Source: Fervidobacterium changbaicum
GTDB lineage: Bacteria > Thermotogota > Thermotogae > Thermotogales > Fervidobacteriaceae
DNA length: 64,000 nucleotides
Reading direction: 5' to 3'
Assembly (NCBI RefSeq): GCF_004117075.1
Contig: NZ_CP026721.1
Span: forward strand, 1,178,001 to 1,242,000
Shown: positions 31,640-37,970 of the stretch, one piece after another
Numbering within the stretch: position 1 is the stretch's first letter
How the letters are laid out: each line of letters starts with the position of its first letter
Notes under the pieces: model-generated
What the model saw: only the letters and a program-made list of their open reading frames with translations
Database searches by the model: none
What the model was told of the DNA's origin: nothing
Translations under genes and position numbers: made by a program

Positions 31640-31667
31640 TTGAAATCTGGAGGTTTTCGTGTATAAT
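31640..31667 (+). promoter_or_regulatory. Promoter of the methionine operon leader
   Basis: TTGAAA at 31640-31645 and TATAAT at 31662-31667, 16 nt apart. The predicted start is near 31674, giving a leader RNA of about 235 nt before the lysC ATG. Confidence 0.75.
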
Positions 31668-31712
31668 TTTTGCCAAAGAAAATCATTAGTCGAGAGGAGA
31701 AATTTAATAAGA

Positions 31713-31820
31713 ATGGGAAAAACGAGAAGAAATAACTCAATTTTTAATATTAAGCTTATAAATTCAATAAATATGATGGCTATGATGATGTGGCGTACCG
31801 ACCGTCCGGTATGCCCGTAG
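31713..31820 (+). CDS. Methionine-rich leader peptide of the lysC operon
   Basis: 35 codons from ATG 31713 to TAG 31818. GAGGAG lies upstream, though at a long 13-nt spacing. The C-terminal part reads MMAMMMWRTDRPVCP, with five Met codons in six positions (31773-31790) just before an RNA hairpin. This is the layout of amino-acid attenuation control: ribosome stalling at Met codons would decide between antiterminator and terminator. Because it lies in front of methionine biosynthesis genes, Met is the natural signal. A shorter frame from ATG 31773 has no ribosome site. Too short for sequence-family support, so the case rests on layout. Confidence 0.72.
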   Translation: MGKTRRNNSIFNIKLINSINMMAMMMWRTDRPVCP

Positions 31821-31875
31821 TTTGCTGGAAAGAAAACGGGACGGTCGGGTGAGAGAATCACCCGACCGTTTTTTT
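31792..31875 (+). promoter_or_regulatory. Transcription attenuator with alternative hairpins
   Basis: Three RNA structures compete. (1) Protector: 31792-31800 with 31107+700, that is 31807-31815, a 9-bp stem with one G-U pair and loop ACCGTC. (2) Antiterminator: 31798-31807 (CCGACCGTCC) pairs over 10 bp with 31839-31848 (GGACGGTCGG). (3) Terminator: 31841-31851 (ACGGTCGGGTG) pairs over 11 bp with 31859-31869, followed by seven Ts (31869-31875). Pairs 2 and 3 are mutually exclusive. Confidence 0.85.
31841..31875 (+). terminator. Intrinsic terminator of the lysC leader
   Basis: Perfect 11-bp GC-rich stem (ACGGTCGGGTG with its complement), 7-nt loop AGAGAAT, then TTTTTTT. It lies 35 nt before the lysC start and would stop the operon unless the antiterminator forms. 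Confidence 0.92.
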
Positions 31876-31909
31876 ATAACCAGAATTTATTCTCAAAGGA
31901 GGCGGTTCC

Positions 31910-33298
31910 ATGAGAGAGAATGAAGGATTCGTTGTGGTTAAGTTTGGTGGTTCAAATTTCAAAAGTCCAGAAGGATATGAAGACGTGATAGCGAAGATTA
32001 ATGAGATACTCAGGTCGGAAAAAGGAAAGACTTTAGTGGTAGTTGTCAGTGCTGCTTACGGTATTACAGATAAACTGATAGGTGCTGTTAATAATTTCAA
32101 AAGCATAGATATCCACAATTTCTTGAGAGAAATATACAACTTGCACGCTTCTATTTTAGAGTCTAACGACAGTACAAATCTAACAGAATTGAGTGAGTTA
32201 GAAAGCAAGGTCTTTGAACTGGAGAAAGTATTTGATGCTTTGAAATTGCTCGGAAAAGTGCCTGATTTTGCAAGGGATTTGATAGTTAGCTATGGTGAGC
32301 GGCTTAATGCGTTTGTATTGCACACCTTGTTGAGAAGAAGAGGACTGAGCTTTGAGCTGAGGCGTCCGGAAGAATGGATAATTACAGACGGAAAGTTTGG
32401 AAATGCATCGGTGCTTCTTGAGTCAACTAAGGAATTGTTTGAGAAGAGGCCTAACGAATGGAAGAGTAATCATTCCATAATTCCCGGATTTTACGGTGCG
32501 TCCAAGGAAAGAGATATAACCCTTCTGGGGCGTGGAGGTAGCGATTATACAGCCACGGTTCTGGCATATGCGTTAAATGCCGAGTACGTTGTTCTTTTCA
32601 AAGATGTCAACGGATTTCTCAGTGGTGACCCGAAGATTGTCGAAAATCCTGTGTTACTTGAGAAACTCAGCTATGATGAGATAGAAGAGCTTTCATACTT
32701 TGGAGCGAAAATAGTTCATCCAAACGCAGTTGATCCACTCAAGAACCGTTCAATACCACTTTACGTTTGCAGCTTTTCAGGAAATTTTAGTCTGGAAAAT
32801 TGTACGGAGATTTCTGCAGAAAAACATCGCACAGAGAAATGTGTGAAGAGTGTTTCGTTCACCGAAGATATAGCGATTGTTCAATTCTTCGGCGCAAATT
32901 TGGGGCGTGTACCTGGTGTTTTAGGCGAGATTGCAAAGAGTATCGCTCAAGCCGGTCTGAACATTAAGTTCGTTGTCACTTCACAAACGGCGATAAACTT
33001 AATAGTTTCTAAAAAAGACCTTCCCGAAGTTCTTCGAGTCTCGGAGATGCTCAGACTTAAGGAAATAGAAGATATCTCTTATCGAACGGACAAGGCACTT
33101 GTTGCCGTAGTGGGTTACGGTTTACTAGATACGCACGGCATTGCAGCAAAGGTGTTTGGGGCATTGGCTAAGAGTGAGATAAACGTTGATATGATTTCTG
33201 CAGGTGCATCGGAGGTTTCAATGTATTTCTTGGTTGATTCGCAGAACGTGAAGATGGCTGTTAAGCAAGTTCACAAAGCACTTTTTGAGGAAGCTTAA
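31910..33298 (+). CDS. lysC: Aspartate kinase
   Basis: 462 aa monofunctional aspartokinase, first step from aspartate to Lys, Thr and Met. The nucleotide-binding N-terminus is VVKFGGSNF (usually KFGGTS), the substrate loop RGGSDYTATVLAYAL, and KDVNGFLSGDPKIVENPVLL is the family signature. Two ACT domains (~325-462) follow, a likely site of feedback inhibition. An AAGGAGGCGG ribosome site precedes ATG. It is the first gene after the Met-leader attenuator, and DUF39, COG2122 and metF genes follow with short gaps, so here it probably serves methionine synthesis. Confidence 0.95.
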   Translation: MRENEGFVVVKFGGSNFKSPEGYEDVIAKINEILRSEKGKTLVVVVSAAYGITDKLIGAVNNFKSIDIHNFLREIYNLHASILESNDSTNLTELSELESKVFELEKVFDALKLLGKVPDFARDLIVSYGERLNAFVLHTLLRRRGLSFELRRPEEWIITDGKFGNASVLLESTKELFEKRPNEWKSNHSIIPGFYGASKERDITLLGRGGSDYTATVLAYALNAEYVVLFKDVNGFLSGDPKIVENPVLLEKLSYDEIEELSYFGAKIVHPNAVDPLKNRSIPLYVCSFSGNFSLENCTEISAEKHRTEKCVKSVSFTEDIAIVQFFGANLGRVPGVLGEIAKSIAQAGLNIKFVVTSQTAINLIVSKKDLPEVLRVSEMLRLKEIEDISYRTDKALVAVVGYGLLDTHGIAAKVFGALAKSEINVDMISAGASEVSMYFLVDSQNVKMAVKQVHKALFEEA

Positions 33299-33322
33299 AA
33301 AGTAGAAATGGGGGTGGTTGAT

Positions 33323-34738
33323 TTGGAAAATTTGAGGACGATTGAGGAAATTAACAAGAAGATTGAAAGAGGAGAGGCTGTGGTTCTAACTGCAGAAGAA
33401 GTTGTAAGAATGGCAAAAGAAGAAGGGGTTAAAGAAGTTGCAAGGAAAGTGGATGTGGTAACAACAGGAACATTTGCCCCCATGTGTTCCAGCGGAGCGT
33501 TTATAAACTTTGGACATACGATGCCTGCTATGCGTATGGAAAAAATAAAGCTGGCTGGTGTAGAAGTGTATGGTGGACTTGCCGCTGTTGACGGGTTCAT
33601 AGGTGCGACTCAGGAGTCGGATTTTGATAAGACATTTGGTGGTGGGCACGTAATTGAAATGTTGATAAGAGGGGAAGACCTATTGCTTGAAGCGTATGGA
33701 AAAGGTACGGATTGTTATCCGGGCAAGAATTTTAGAGGGTACATCAATAAGGATATGATCAACGATTTCTTCCTTTTTAATCCGAGAAACGCTTACCAAA
33801 ACTACGCAGCAGCTACTAACAGCTCTGGTAAAGTGCTTTATACATACATGGGCAAGTTGTTACCAAACTACGGGAATGTGAACTACTCAACTTCCGGAGA
33901 ACTCAGTCCATTGCTCAAGGACCCGAAGATGAAGACGATAGGTATAGGAACAAGGATATTTCTCGGCGGAGGAGTTGGATACGTTTCCTGGTACGGAACA
34001 CAGTTTAGATCCAACGTTCGAGAAAATGACAATGGTGTCCCTCTTGCTCCAGCTCGCACACTTGCATTGATAGGAGACGCTAAGAAGATGGAACCGAGAT
34101 TTGTGAAAGGTGCGTATTTTAAAAACTACGGGGTGACACTATTTGTTGGTGTAGGAGTACCTATACCTGTTCTTAACGAGGAGATAGCGTTCTACGTCAG
34201 TCTTTCCAATGAGGAAATTCACACGGAGATTAAAGATTATGCGAAGTTAGAGAAACCTACCGTTGGAGTAGCGAGCTATGCACAACTGAGGTCAGGAAAG
34301 GTTAAAATCAACGGGAAAGAGGTTAGAACAACTTCCCTTTCCAGTTTACAAAAGGCAAGAGAAATAGCAAACATTCTGAAAGAGTGGATATTGGCTGGCA
34401 GGTTCTTCTTGACAAATCCGGCGGCTATGCTCGATGAGGAACGGACTTTGAAAAGCCTTTCTAAAGTTACTCAAATCGCTCTTCAATCGGAGGATGAAAA
34501 GGTTGAGTACGTTAGAGGAACGTCGCACCCAAAGGAGAAACTCAGCGAACACAAAGAATGTGTCAACTGTGGTGCGTGTATTTCAGTATGCAACTATGGA
34601 GCTCTTTACTGGGACGAAGACAAAGTTAAATTTGATGAGTCAAAGTGTGTGTACTGTATGCTCTGCACCGATACCTGTCCTGTTGGTTTGAGACTCCCAG
34701 ATGAAAAATCAGACTTGAAGTTTGAAATGCCATATTGA
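33323..34738 (+). CDS. DUF39-ferredoxin fusion, L-aspartate semialdehyde sulfurtransferase (homocysteine synthesis)
   Basis: About 471 aa. The DUF39 domain (~1-380) has VVTTGTFAPMCSSGAFINFG with a conserved Cys near 55, and GKGTDCYPG with another Cys, the kind of residues that carry persulfide. The C-terminal ~65 residues are a two-cluster ferredoxin, CVNCGACISVCNYGAL and CVYCMLCTDTCPVGL. In methanogens DUF39 and a ferredoxin-type partner make homocysteine directly from aspartate semialdehyde and sulfide; here both are one protein. The start is TTG at 33323 with GGGGGTGG five bases upstream; the ATG at 33308 overlaps that site. Role inferred from family and operon. Confidence 0.83.
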   Translation: MENLRTIEEINKKIERGEAVVLTAEEVVRMAKEEGVKEVARKVDVVTTGTFAPMCSSGAFINFGHTMPAMRMEKIKLAGVEVYGGLAAVDGFIGATQESDFDKTFGGGHVIEMLIRGEDLLLEAYGKGTDCYPGKNFRGYINKDMINDFFLFNPRNAYQNYAAATNSSGKVLYTYMGKLLPNYGNVNYSTSGELSPLLKDPKMKTIGIGTRIFLGGGVGYVSWYGTQFRSNVRENDNGVPLAPARTLALIGDAKKMEPRFVKGAYFKNYGVTLFVGVGVPIPVLNEEIAFYVSLSNEEIHTEIKDYAKLEKPTVGVASYAQLRSGKVKINGKEVRTTSLSSLQKAREIANILKEWILAGRFFLTNPAAMLDEERTLKSLSKVTQIALQSEDEKVEYVRGTSHPKEKLSEHKECVNCGACISVCNYGALYWDEDKVKFDESKCVYCMLCTDTCPVGLRLPDEKSDLKFEMPY

Positions 34739-34776
34739 TGTTGAGGACTTTTAATTTTGCGAGCGGGGGACATACG

Positions 34777-35604
34777 ATGAAGCAGAATGACTACAACCGA
34801 TGTGGAAGACAATACAACGGGTATGGCGAACGTTTCGATATTTTACTTAGCCAAAGAAAGCTCAACGTCGTGAAAAGATTTTACAGAGATTATTATTCTG
34901 AAAACTTTGATAGATTTTACGTGCGTTACAAATACACCGATTTAGCAATTGCAACTGATAAGTTTACACTGGAAATGCTTGATGGTGTCTACGATTTAGT
35001 TAAAAAGCACTACGAAGAACTTGAAGAATTAAGAGCGATAAGCAAGGAATTCTTCGAATCTTTTAAGCCTGTAGATATCGTTGCTTTAAATATTCCAGAT
35101 ATTGCCCGTTCCATGTGCGAAGCTACGAAATTGGCAGAAGTTGGTCCTATGGCCGCAGTTGCCGGTGCGTTTGCAGAATCTGTAGGAAATTATCTTCTAA
35201 ACCTGCACCACTGCGAGGAAGTCATTGTCGAAAACGGGGGAGATATTTACATAAACGTGCGCAGGCCGGTAAACGTTGGCATCTTCGCAAATTTTGAGAG
35301 CGAATTCAACAAGCTTTCCATAGCTTTGGAACCGGGCGAATACGGTGTGTGCACGTCATCTGGGAAGATAGGACATTCGATTAGTTTCGGAAATGCCGAT
35401 GCTGCGTGTGTGATTGCCAAAAGTAGCACGTATGCCGATGCGTTTGCAACAAAATACGGGAATTTGATAAAAAGCGAGGATGACCTTGAAAAAGTCTTAG
35501 AATTTGTGAGGAAAGACGTTGATAGAGAACGTTACATACTTGGTGTGTTGTTTGTTGTTGACAAGAAATTGTTTGCTTATGGAAACGTAAAGCTTTCAAT
35601 TTAA
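34777..35604 (+). CDS. UPF0280/COG2122 protein, homocysteine pathway partner
   Basis: About 275 aa. It has the ApbE-like UPF0280 core: ARSMCEATKLAEVGPMAAVAG, FAESVGNYLL, EVIVENGGDIYI and a SFGNADAACVIA motif near 205-220. COG2122 members are genetically tied to the DUF39 homocysteine route in Methanosarcina and sit beside DUF39 genes elsewhere. The start ATG at 34777 has GCGGGGG six bases upstream; upstream ATGs at 34735 lack a site. Placed between the DUF39 gene and metF, it probably supports sulfur transfer or flavin/Fe-S steps, but the biochemical role is not settled. Confidence 0.8.
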   Translation: MKQNDYNRCGRQYNGYGERFDILLSQRKLNVVKRFYRDYYSENFDRFYVRYKYTDLAIATDKFTLEMLDGVYDLVKKHYEELEELRAISKEFFESFKPVDIVALNIPDIARSMCEATKLAEVGPMAAVAGAFAESVGNYLLNLHHCEEVIVENGGDIYINVRRPVNVGIFANFESEFNKLSIALEPGEYGVCTSSGKIGHSISFGNADAACVIAKSSTYADAFATKYGNLIKSEDDLEKVLEFVRKDVDRERYILGVLFVVDKKLFAYGNVKLSI

Positions 35605-35636
35605 AACTGTAAGTGTGAGAAATGGAGGTGGGGAAG

Positions 35637-36578
35637 TTGAAGGTTTCTGAAATAGTCAAAGAAAAGAGAATCATATCGATAGAAATAATACCACCAAAGC
35701 GTGGGGAAAATGTTGAGAACATCTACAAGAGCTTGGATAAGCTCATGAAATACGATATCTCTTTCATAAACATAACAAGACATCCTGTGGCGGTGGACTA
35801 CATTGAGCACGAAGATAGGATAATCAAAGTGCAGAAGGTCAAAAGGCCTGGAACGATCGGTTTGACTGCAGCACTTATGAATAGGTACAAAATCGATGTC
35901 GTTCCACATCTTGTATGTGTTGGAATGAATAAATTTGAAATGGAAGATACCTTGATCGACCTTGATATAATGGGCGTAGATAATGTGTTTGTTATTCGCG
36001 GGGAAACCGACCAAAACAACGGAAGTTATACGAAAGGAGATTACAGATACGCAGTTGACTTGGTGCAGCAGATAAGGGATTTGAACAGCGGAAAGTACTT
36101 GTACACGAAAGCGAAACCTACGAATTTTTGTATCGGTGTGGCAGGTTATCCGGAAAAGCACTACGAATCACCGAATGCAGAGACCGATTTGAAATTCCTC
36201 AAACAAAAAGTGGATGCTGGTGCAGACTATATTATCACTCAGATGGTCTTCGATGCAGAAGTCTATAGAAGCTTCGTTGAACGTTGCAGAATGGTGGGGA
36301 TAGATGTTCCAATAATTCCAGGAATTAAACCTGTTGTTAGCAAAAGCTCTGTCTTCAACATCCCGAAGAAGTTTTTCGTAAACATACCTCAAAAATTGGT
36401 TGAGGCAATTGATAATGCAAAAACAAAAGAAGAAGAGTTTAGAATAGGGATAAGTTTCACAGTAGAACTTGTTGAAAAGCTTATCGAGTACGGAGCACCC
36501 GGAATACATGTTTTTACGATGGGGCGCGGTGAGGAAAGTTGTGAGGTGATTAAGTTCGCACAAAGTATAATTAAGTGA
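35637..36578 (+). CDS. metF: Methylenetetrahydrofolate reductase
   Basis: 313 aa TIM-barrel flavoenzyme giving 5-methyl-THF, the methyl donor for homocysteine methylation. N-terminal IISIEIIPPKRGENVENIY holds the catalytic Glu, SFINITRHPVAVDYIE matches the substrate loop, and NVFVIRGETDQ and KVDAGADYIITQMVFDAE are conserved. The start is TTG 35637 with GGAGGTG six bases upstream; ATG 35622 lies inside the ribosome site. It is the last gene of the Met operon; homocysteine methyltransferase is not in the window. Confidence 0.93.
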   Translation: MKVSEIVKEKRIISIEIIPPKRGENVENIYKSLDKLMKYDISFINITRHPVAVDYIEHEDRIIKVQKVKRPGTIGLTAALMNRYKIDVVPHLVCVGMNKFEMEDTLIDLDIMGVDNVFVIRGETDQNNGSYTKGDYRYAVDLVQQIRDLNSGKYLYTKAKPTNFCIGVAGYPEKHYESPNAETDLKFLKQKVDAGADYIITQMVFDAEVYRSFVERCRMVGIDVPIIPGIKPVVSKSSVFNIPKKFFVNIPQKLVEAIDNAKTKEEEFRIGISFTVELVEKLIEYGAPGIHVFTMGRGEESCEVIKFAQSIIK

Positions 36579-36708: not shown

Positions 36709-36731
36709 ATTTTCAAAAGGTGGTGTTCAAT

Positions 36732-37970
36732 GTGGCAGTATTTGAAGAACCAATCGCAGTAGGGAAGATTAGAAAAATAATCAGGGATATATTTTTCGAT
36801 AATGTGAAACTTTCGTACGGTTGCACAGAGCCGGTAGCTGTCGGGCTTTCTGTGGCCATTGCGAAGGATTATCTAAAAGGGGAACTGAATAGGATAGAGA
36901 TTTTGATGGATAGAAATACCTACAAGAACGGTTTAGAGGTTGGTATCCCGGGAACGCATCTGCACGGTTTTGAAATTGCAGCCGCGCTGGCGTATTTGAT
37001 TGGCAAATCCGAGTTCGGATTAGAGGTTTTCAAAAATGTCACTGGTGAGATAGTTTCTAAAGCTTACGAGATGAAGGATAAAGTCAGCGTGAAATACGAA
37101 AACGAGATACGTTTGCATATTAAAACAAAAGTTGTAGGAGATAACGAGGTACTTGTGGAGATAACAGATAGTCATGATAACGTGAGCAGAATAGTTGTTG
37201 ACGGGAATGAAATACTGAACACACAATCGAGCGTGAATTTTAAAAAAGAAGGAGCAAAAGCTGTCACACTCAATGAGATATTTGATTATGTTCAAAAACC
37301 TGATGAAGATGTTTTGGAACTTGTCAGGAAGGCGACTGAATATAACATAGAGATTTCAGAAATTGGATTGAATACGGATGGGAATTTCGGGAGAGTCTTA
37401 GATGGTATACCGCGGTATGTTGCCGCAGGTGTCGATCAGCGAATGAGTGGAGCACTACTCCCTGTCATGACGGTGGCTGGTAGTGGTAATCAGGGTATTT
37501 CTTGTATCGTACCAGTATCGAAAGTTGCAGATGATCTTGGCGTATCGCAGGAAAAGAAAGAAAAAGCGGTTTTACTGAGTATACTTGTAACGATTTATGT
37601 GAAGGCTTATACGGGTACGTTAACTCCAATATGCGGGGCTGGTAGTATAGCTTCAGCAGGTGCATCAGCTGGAATTGTATTCTTGAACGATGGTAGCTAT
37701 GAGCAGATTAAGAATGCCATCAACAACGTACTTGCTACGTTGTTTGGTATGACGTGTGATGGAGCGAAAAGAAGCTGTTCATTAAAAGCAAGTATTGGCA
37801 CCCAGATGGCACTGAATTCAGCTAAGCTGGCTTTAAATGGTACAAATATCCCTTGCGGAAATGGATTTGCCGCAAGGGATGTGGAGGAAACGATAAGAAG
37901 ACTCGAAGTACTTACAAATTCGTTGAGAAACTTCGATGAGGATGTCATAAATTTCATCGGACATTGCTGA
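36732..37970 (+). CDS. cyuA: L-cysteine desulfidase / serine dehydratase alpha-like (UPF0597, CyuA)
   Basis: 412 aa. Fe-S enzyme of the CyuA/MJ1025 family, which breaks cysteine into pyruvate, ammonia and sulfide. Cysteines for a 4Fe-4S cluster are in KLSYGCTEPVAV (~31), TPICGAGSIAS, GMTCDGAKRSC and NIPCGNGFAARD. The start is GTG 36732 with AAGGTGG 8 nt upstream; two GTGs further up overlap that site. It lies 150 nt after metF; whether it belongs to the Met operon is unclear. Sulfide made here could feed the DUF39 enzyme, an attractive but untested link. Confidence 0.88.
   Translation: MAVFEEPIAVGKIRKIIRDIFFDNVKLSYGCTEPVAVGLSVAIAKDYLKGELNRIEILMDRNTYKNGLEVGIPGTHLHGFEIAAALAYLIGKSEFGLEVFKNVTGEIVSKAYEMKDKVSVKYENEIRLHIKTKVVGDNEVLVEITDSHDNVSRIVVDGNEILNTQSSVNFKKEGAKAVTLNEIFDYVQKPDEDVLELVRKATEYNIEISEIGLNTDGNFGRVLDGIPRYVAAGVDQRMSGALLPVMTVAGSGNQGISCIVPVSKVADDLGVSQEKKEKAVLLSILVTIYVKAYTGTLTPICGAGSIASAGASAGIVFLNDGSYEQIKNAINNVLATLFGMTCDGAKRSCSLKASIGTQMALNSAKLALNGTNIPCGNGFAARDVEETIRRLEVLTNSLRNFDEDVINFIGHC

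Follow-up and report, generated by a model that had tools for sequence, protein, structure and literature searches.

The region upstream of lysC in the window (the whole 64,000-nt stretch of Fervidobacterium changbaicum DNA that was analysed) in all probability encodes a ribosome-mediated transcription attenuator reading charged elongator tRNA-Met; judged from the sequence and its comparison with relatives, we put the probability of this reading at roughly 0.92. The genes behind the leader, lysC-DUF39-COG2122-metF, are a methionine operon with an aspartate kinase at its head, and their order is preserved throughout the relatives (for the name COG2122 of the homocysteine-pathway protein see PMC5764234). 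The sequence elements of the leader, their positions, their covariation and their recurrence before operons for Met synthesis and uptake can be read directly from the genomes. Apart from the pause site, every hallmark of ribosome-mediated attenuation that can be looked for in sequence is present. The features are compiled in Table 1. The gene upstream of the leader region runs in the divergent direction. At the other end, no + strand terminator was found in the 142-nt gap before the SDH_alpha gene, which is possibly the last gene of the operon; its product is perhaps a cysteine desulfidase supplying sulfide. A metH gene exists in this genus apart from the operon, and our detector found no leader there.

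Table 1. Features of the attenuator and of the genes behind it (positions in the window).
Feature	Position	Strand	Basis
Sigma-70-type promoter	31640..31667	+	Consensus scan; identical promoter and spacing in a close relative (L061)
Leader ribosome binding site AGGAG	31695..31699	+	Sequence
Leader peptide ORF MGKTRRNNSIFNIKLINSINMMAMMMWRTDRPVCP	31713..31820	+	ORF; orthologous leaders in relatives
Control codons ATG ATG GCT ATG ATG ATG	31773..31790	+	Sequence; Met cluster kept in 44/44 leaders
Protector (1:2) hairpin, 9 bp	31792..31815	+	Folding and helix search; relatives
Antiterminator 5' arm CCGACCGTCC	31798..31807	+	Pair counts: all cells paired (100%), double changes in 3 pairs
Candidate RNA polymerase pause site CGTAGTTTGCT/GGAAAG	31816..31832	+	Sequence comparison; inference
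Antiterminator 3' arm GGACGGTCGG, overlapping the terminator 5' arm	31839..31848	+	Pair counts in relatives
Intrinsic terminator hairpin, 12 bp, loop 5	31841..31869	+	Helix search; comparison of terminator helix in relatives
Terminator U-run	31869..31875	+	Sequence
lysC, aspartate kinase	31910..33298	+	Pfam AA_kinase and ACT; NCBIfam aspartate kinase
DUF39/HcyBio homocysteine biosynthesis protein, C-terminal ferredoxin domain	33308..34738	+	Pfam HcyBio, E 1e-144
COG2122-type homocysteine-pathway protein	34735..35604	+	NCBIfam PRK04334 group; COG2122 name after the preliminary description and PMC5764234
metF, methylenetetrahydrofolate reductase	35622..36578	+	Pfam MTHFR
SDH_alpha family (serine dehydratase alpha-family) protein	36720..37970	+	Pfam; gap sequence; adjacency in L061-L065

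The best promoter-like match between 30 and 38 kb of the window is TTGAAA-16-TATAAT (31640–31667), which agrees with the consensus at 11 of 12 positions. Between it and lysC lies a short translatable ORF with a ribosome site, running over 35 codons from ATG 31713 to TAG 31818–31820, with the C-terminal end MMAMMMWRTDRPVCP. An alternative in-frame GTG start at 31659 falls inside the promoter, 5' of any transcription start, therefore ATG 31713 stands as the start of the leader. The distance from AGGAG to this ATG is long (13 nt); L061, a close relative, has the same distance and L062 almost the same. Within the control block, five out of six codons specify Met (31773, 31776, 31782, 31785 and 31788). 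The promoter, the 35-codon leader with its five Met codons and the 13-nt gap had all been claimed in the preliminary description and were borne out.

The protector hairpin starts one base past the last Met codon and pairs 31792–31800 with 31807–31815; its arms show GGCGUACC/GGUAUGCC as against GGUGUACC/GGUACACC in relatives. The 5' arm of the antiterminator is a repeat of the 3' arm of the terminator, whose stem (31841–31852 with 31858–31869) and U-run stand ahead of the first gene. The previously described 9-bp protector was recovered, and the 10-bp antiterminator (31798–31807 with 31839–31848) as well as its overlap with the terminator (31841–31848) proved exact. For the terminator, the location, the overlap and the T-run to 31875 were right, but the stem of 11 bp became one of 12 bp upon recounting. 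Compared with its shuffles, the RNA of 31773–31875 has a much more stable fold (z = -5.6), and the longer leader RNA gives z = -4.4. Not one out of 2000 dinucleotide shuffles of 31674–31890 contained a comparably strong terminator, let alone the full set. One could still think of a plain terminator belonging to the upstream region, or of a constitutive partial terminator, next to a fortuitous Met-rich ORF, as the region is indeed rich in terminators. Yet the upstream gene is divergent, the set was never reproduced by shuffles, and the combination of Met cluster, antiterminator and terminator is found 44 times, nearly always before Met genes, so that we regard such a coincidence as hardly conceivable.

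The helices also hold in relatives. In alignment A3, 10 of 10 antiterminator pairs are kept in all eight relatives (100% of cells paired), and the three variable pairs show double changes (U-A/C-G, U-A/C-G and C-G/G-C). These amount to 10 double-change cells against 4.0 in shuffles, a value not reached in any of 500 shuffles, and antiterminator helices slid out of register pair in at most 53% of the cells. In a second group (alignment A4) the antiterminator is again 100% paired, with one double change. The column 33/75/103, which joins the antiterminator and the 3' arm of the terminator, changes three ways, from U33-A75-U103 to C33-G75-C103, and this is what a three-way switch predicts. In another relative (L080) the antiterminator comprises 18 bp of quite different sequence. 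Antiterminator and terminator, which exclude each other, thus have support from covariation: the pairing of the one was held through double changes, and the other changes in step. With all elements in place and covariation found, the layout of ribosome-stalling attenuation of the thr, his and trp type, as proposed for this leader before, is well supported.

In the attenuator as we envisage it, RNA polymerase would start near 31674 and be followed along the leader by a ribosome making the 35-codon peptide. With ample methionyl-tRNA, this ribosome would reach the stop codon at 31818 and cover the antiterminator 5' arm; the terminator (31841–31869) would form and transcription end near 31875. Under a shortage of methionyl-tRNA, the ribosome would instead stall within the Met block (31773–31790) and cover the 5' arm of the protector, which would leave 31798–31807 free to pair with 31839–31848. 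The antiterminator formed in this way would block the terminator, lysC-DUF39-COG2122-metF would be transcribed, and homocysteine and methionine would be made. From the arrangement of the elements we infer the translation of the leader, the stalling and the polarity of the response.

Folding is consistent with these steps. We assumed a ribosome to reach about 12 nt beyond where the A-site codon starts, removed the RNA under the stalled ribosome and ended the transcript directly behind the 5' arm of the terminator. The antiterminator was then the best structure when the stall was at Met 1, 3 or 4; with the ribosome at the stop codon there was only the terminator and nothing competing. Given this footprint, a stalled ribosome would open the protector and spare the antiterminator arm, except that a ribosome held at the fifth Met codon would reach over the initial three bases of that arm. 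The position of the protector close to the stall codons had been considered a weak point, but it turns out to be the right geometry, since a stall at Met 3 or 4 frees the antiterminator arm. In the nearest eight genomes the protector begins at, or about 1 base past, the last Met codon and the antiterminator arm 7 bases past it; in most other leaders this arm begins, by eye, about 5 to 8 bases past the cluster. In equilibrium folding of the full-length RNA, the terminator always wins; hence, antitermination must be kinetic and occur during transcription, as in known attenuators. At intermediate length and with no ribosome the antiterminator beats the protector in folding, so that the state without translation may leak. 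Furthermore, Met starvation lowers fMet-tRNA and hence should also lower initiation on the leader. An attenuator that reads Met is thus expected to respond in a middle range of shortage only, which may be the cause of its rarity. A sensor built on the initiating amino acid may then be self-limiting: on at moderate shortage of methionyl-tRNA and off again when initiation fails.

Met-codon leaders of this layout were found 44 times, in 43 out of 103 Thermotogota genomes and in nine families. They were obtained by three routes: upstream of DUF39 genes, with a covariance model (R1) built from eight Met leaders of this first route, and with a further covariance model (R2). Among matches of R1 and R2 with E above about 1e-4 we kept only those showing a Met leader, because in 39 genomes of other phyla R2 gave only plain terminators. 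Four R1 matches (G000:1022968, G006:1736180, G069:185305 and G013:C2) were discarded as ordinary terminators. All 44 leaders hold 2 to 5 Met within the first eight codons from the start of the cluster, nine of them two only (M-I-M). The start codon is in frame, with one leader lacking an assigned start, and a ribosome binding site is recognisable in nearly all of them. This cluster of end-product codons is thus conserved in relatives, over nine families, as the idea of a Met-codon leader had implied.

The Met cluster reads MMAMMMWRTDR (L061, L062, L064), MMAMMMWCTDR (L063), MMAMMMRCTDR (L065) or MMPMMMWCTDR (L066, L067) in the nearest genomes and MMIMCG or MMIMRG in a related group (L081, L083-L085). 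Among more distant families it takes the forms MMNTMMMRMM, MMMRWKAPG, MMMCGDA, MNMWMCG and MMMRHTPP; the flanking residues vary, and the Met cluster is kept. This pattern bears on the idea of a nascent-peptide arrest, in which the leader peptide, while in the ribosome tunnel, would respond to free Met or SAM and not to tRNA charging. The conserved MMAMMMW(R/C)TDR of the closest group would suit it, but from family to family there is free variation on either side of the Met block, with the residues behind it following the RNA helices; moreover, if high SAM caused the arrest, Met synthesis would be expressed more rather than less. We therefore consider peptide arrest very unlikely. In many leaders the Met block contains ATG ATA ATG, with an Ile AUA between two Met codons (L073, L076-L078, L081, L083-L085, L091, L259, L260).

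The attenuator precedes different operons in different families. In family f2 a leader with MAMIMC, MIMC or MIMR stands ahead of a longer operon beginning with metH parts, and R2 added a metF-metH operon (L262). In genomes of f9 and f11, found with R1, the leader is located ahead of a three-gene operon, metQNI, coding for an NlpA lipoprotein, an ABC ATPase with NIL domain and a permease; an operon with this lipoprotein and NIL domain is one for methionine import. These metQNI leaders occur in genera which do not have the lysC-DUF39-COG2122-metF operon. Since the same leader precedes these transporters, methionine, and not lysine or threonine, is supported as the signal, in line with the preliminary description and with the conserved Met clusters. 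The contexts are nearly always Met genes, the exceptions being three uncharacterised genes and one orphan. The former are located in three f3 genomes, where R2 matched Met leaders; the one at L260:1510-2153 (also L264 and L254, apparently Thermotoga) contains ..SDMIMCTT.. and a 13-bp antiterminator and is followed by a gene for a lone 171-aa protein with no Pfam match. The orphan leader MMMRWKAPGSCPP (L261:1511-2166, genome G064) has a terminator, and the next gene on the same strand is argS about 600 nt further on, with a tRNA gene on the opposite strand in between. In genome G008 (L062:9117-10540) a transposase-like gene of 405 aa, by eye of IS110 type (FVGIDISKHKF), has been placed between the intact attenuator and lysC and hence separates the operon from its leader.

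Thermotogota DNA amounting to 593 kb was scanned for each of the 20 amino acids with a detector for the combination of leader, antiterminator and terminator. It returned 16 matches for Met, every one of them in front of a lysC/DUF39 operon. No other residue gave more than three, and part of these were the same leaders scored under a different residue. Within the same 593 kb, 23 of 53 strong terminators have an antiterminator-like upstream repeat with a score of 20 or more, and these belong to Met leaders in 19 cases and to a Trp leader in four. As a control, the detector recovered thrL of E. coli and missed hisL; thus it is not exhaustive. Among 80 DUF39 loci, nearly all from other phyla and one from Mesoaciditogaceae, it found no Met leader upstream of DUF39 outside the Thermotogota.

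Methionine and lysine genes are often under the control of riboswitches or T-boxes, and three related genomes do carry a SAM-I riboswitch before lysC-DUF39. We also weighed the possibility that the small ORF happens to overlap a T-box or a metabolite riboswitch (for SAM or lysine) that would sense SAM, Met or tRNA directly, without translation. Rfam models gave no match at gathering score in the window and only chance matches at relaxed thresholds, with neither SAM-I nor lysine riboswitch nor T-box among these. The RNA 5' of the Met block is unconserved, but reading frame, start codon and Met codons are conserved, and SAM-I, where present, is a separate upstream element. Such an element is therefore highly improbable, even more so than peptide arrest. 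The separate arrangement is seen in genome G100 (L088:7593-7782, minus strand), in which a Met-leader attenuator comes directly after a SAM-I riboswitch (86 bits with the Rfam model) that has a terminator to itself, so that switches for SAM and for Met-tRNA stand in series ahead of lysC-DUF39. In genome G093 (L092:10459-10805) lysC is preceded by a SAM-I riboswitch and, behind this, a leader with the C-terminal end KKVLIIGIT and a terminator; codons for Ile/Thr may here have replaced those for Met as control codons.

Classical attenuation covers Thr, His, Trp, Leu, Ile/Val and Phe; for methionine, the usual sensors are SAM riboswitches, T-boxes or MetJ. With the thr, his, trp, leu, ilv and phe attenuators of Proteobacteria the Thermotogota leader has in common the end-product codons in the leader peptide, the order and overlap of protector, antiterminator and terminator, and the U-run. 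It differs from them in its specificity for Met, which is also the initiating amino acid, in its occurrence in another phylum with no sequence relation and no Rfam match (the covariance models of the his, thr, trp and leu leader families found nothing in the window), and in controlling DUF39-type homocysteine synthesis and metQNI. The SAM-I riboswitch (S-box) and the Met-specific T-box likewise control this pathway through premature termination, but they sense SAM or uncharged tRNA directly, without translation, and are unmatched in the window.

In the literature open to searching we found no earlier description of a clear phylum-wide Met attenuator. According to the available parts of PMC8079986, a metL leader has been proposed ahead of metNIQ in Streptomyces lividans TK24. 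It resembles the Thermotogota leader as a proposed Met-dependent leader peptide before a Met importer; in contrast, it is leaderless, has two scattered internal Met codons and, per its authors, no typical intrinsic terminator. Those parts of the article yielded no comparative evidence for metL, a weak proposal of a Met leader as far as they go. The cysteine-codon uORFC-8-2 before cysS in Rhodobacterales, as presented in the main text of PMC8632094, is likewise an attenuator for a non-classical amino acid, but for another one and in another phylum; that survey included a Thermotogae genome, and a term search of its main text found no Thermotogae leader. According to a survey of RNA motif regulons, the attenuators in Rfam are only those for His, Leu, Thr and Trp, with Ile/Val and Phe characterised elsewhere, and amino acid attenuators may stem from gamma-proteobacteria with very few transfers (PMC3766115). 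Our findings argue that the Thermotogota hold many attenuators of their own.

A Met-codon attenuator in nine families of a deep-branching thermophilic phylum would widen the known range of the mechanism, imply that close coupling of transcription and translation works in these thermophiles, and link the DUF39 homocysteine pathway to methionine by regulation. It raises the question of how the amino acid that starts every protein can serve as a starvation signal. As a tentative wider picture, which is possible but on which we would not insist, Thermotogota may possess an ancient, phylum-wide and self-limiting leader-peptide control of Met synthesis and uptake, stacked with SAM-I into a two-signal gate in some genera, with a pause possibly converged on the his pause of E. 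coli. Concerning the latter, CGTAGTTTGCT/GGAAAG is located 11 nt past the protector, and in about 11 of 17 leaders a pyrimidine-G occurs 11–12 nt past it. The hisL leader of E. coli has CGATGTGTGCT/GGAAGA, the site of the well-known his pause, and TGTGCT/GGAAGA there and TTTGCT/GGAAAG in the window are alike, both 11 nt past the first hairpin. This resemblance suggests a possible polymerase pause in our leader.

Leaders for two other amino acids were seen in Thermotogota. On the minus strand of L069 near 3191 (also in L070, L072 and L074) the leader MKAIAVRTRFGEFAYAYWWFRGRPSSGIPPKPLGT, with Trp-Trp and an antiterminator/terminator pair, precedes a gene that looks like one for an ABC substrate-binding protein (TrpX-like by eye) and is likely a Trp attenuator. 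In genome G051 (L226, minus strand, about 2372-2560) the leader MNNRIFSTLKWHHHHSNIYKSAPPDVLSLL contains four His codons; it has a terminator, stands ahead of a HisZ-like gene and hisG and is likely a His attenuator. Both share the build of the Met leader.
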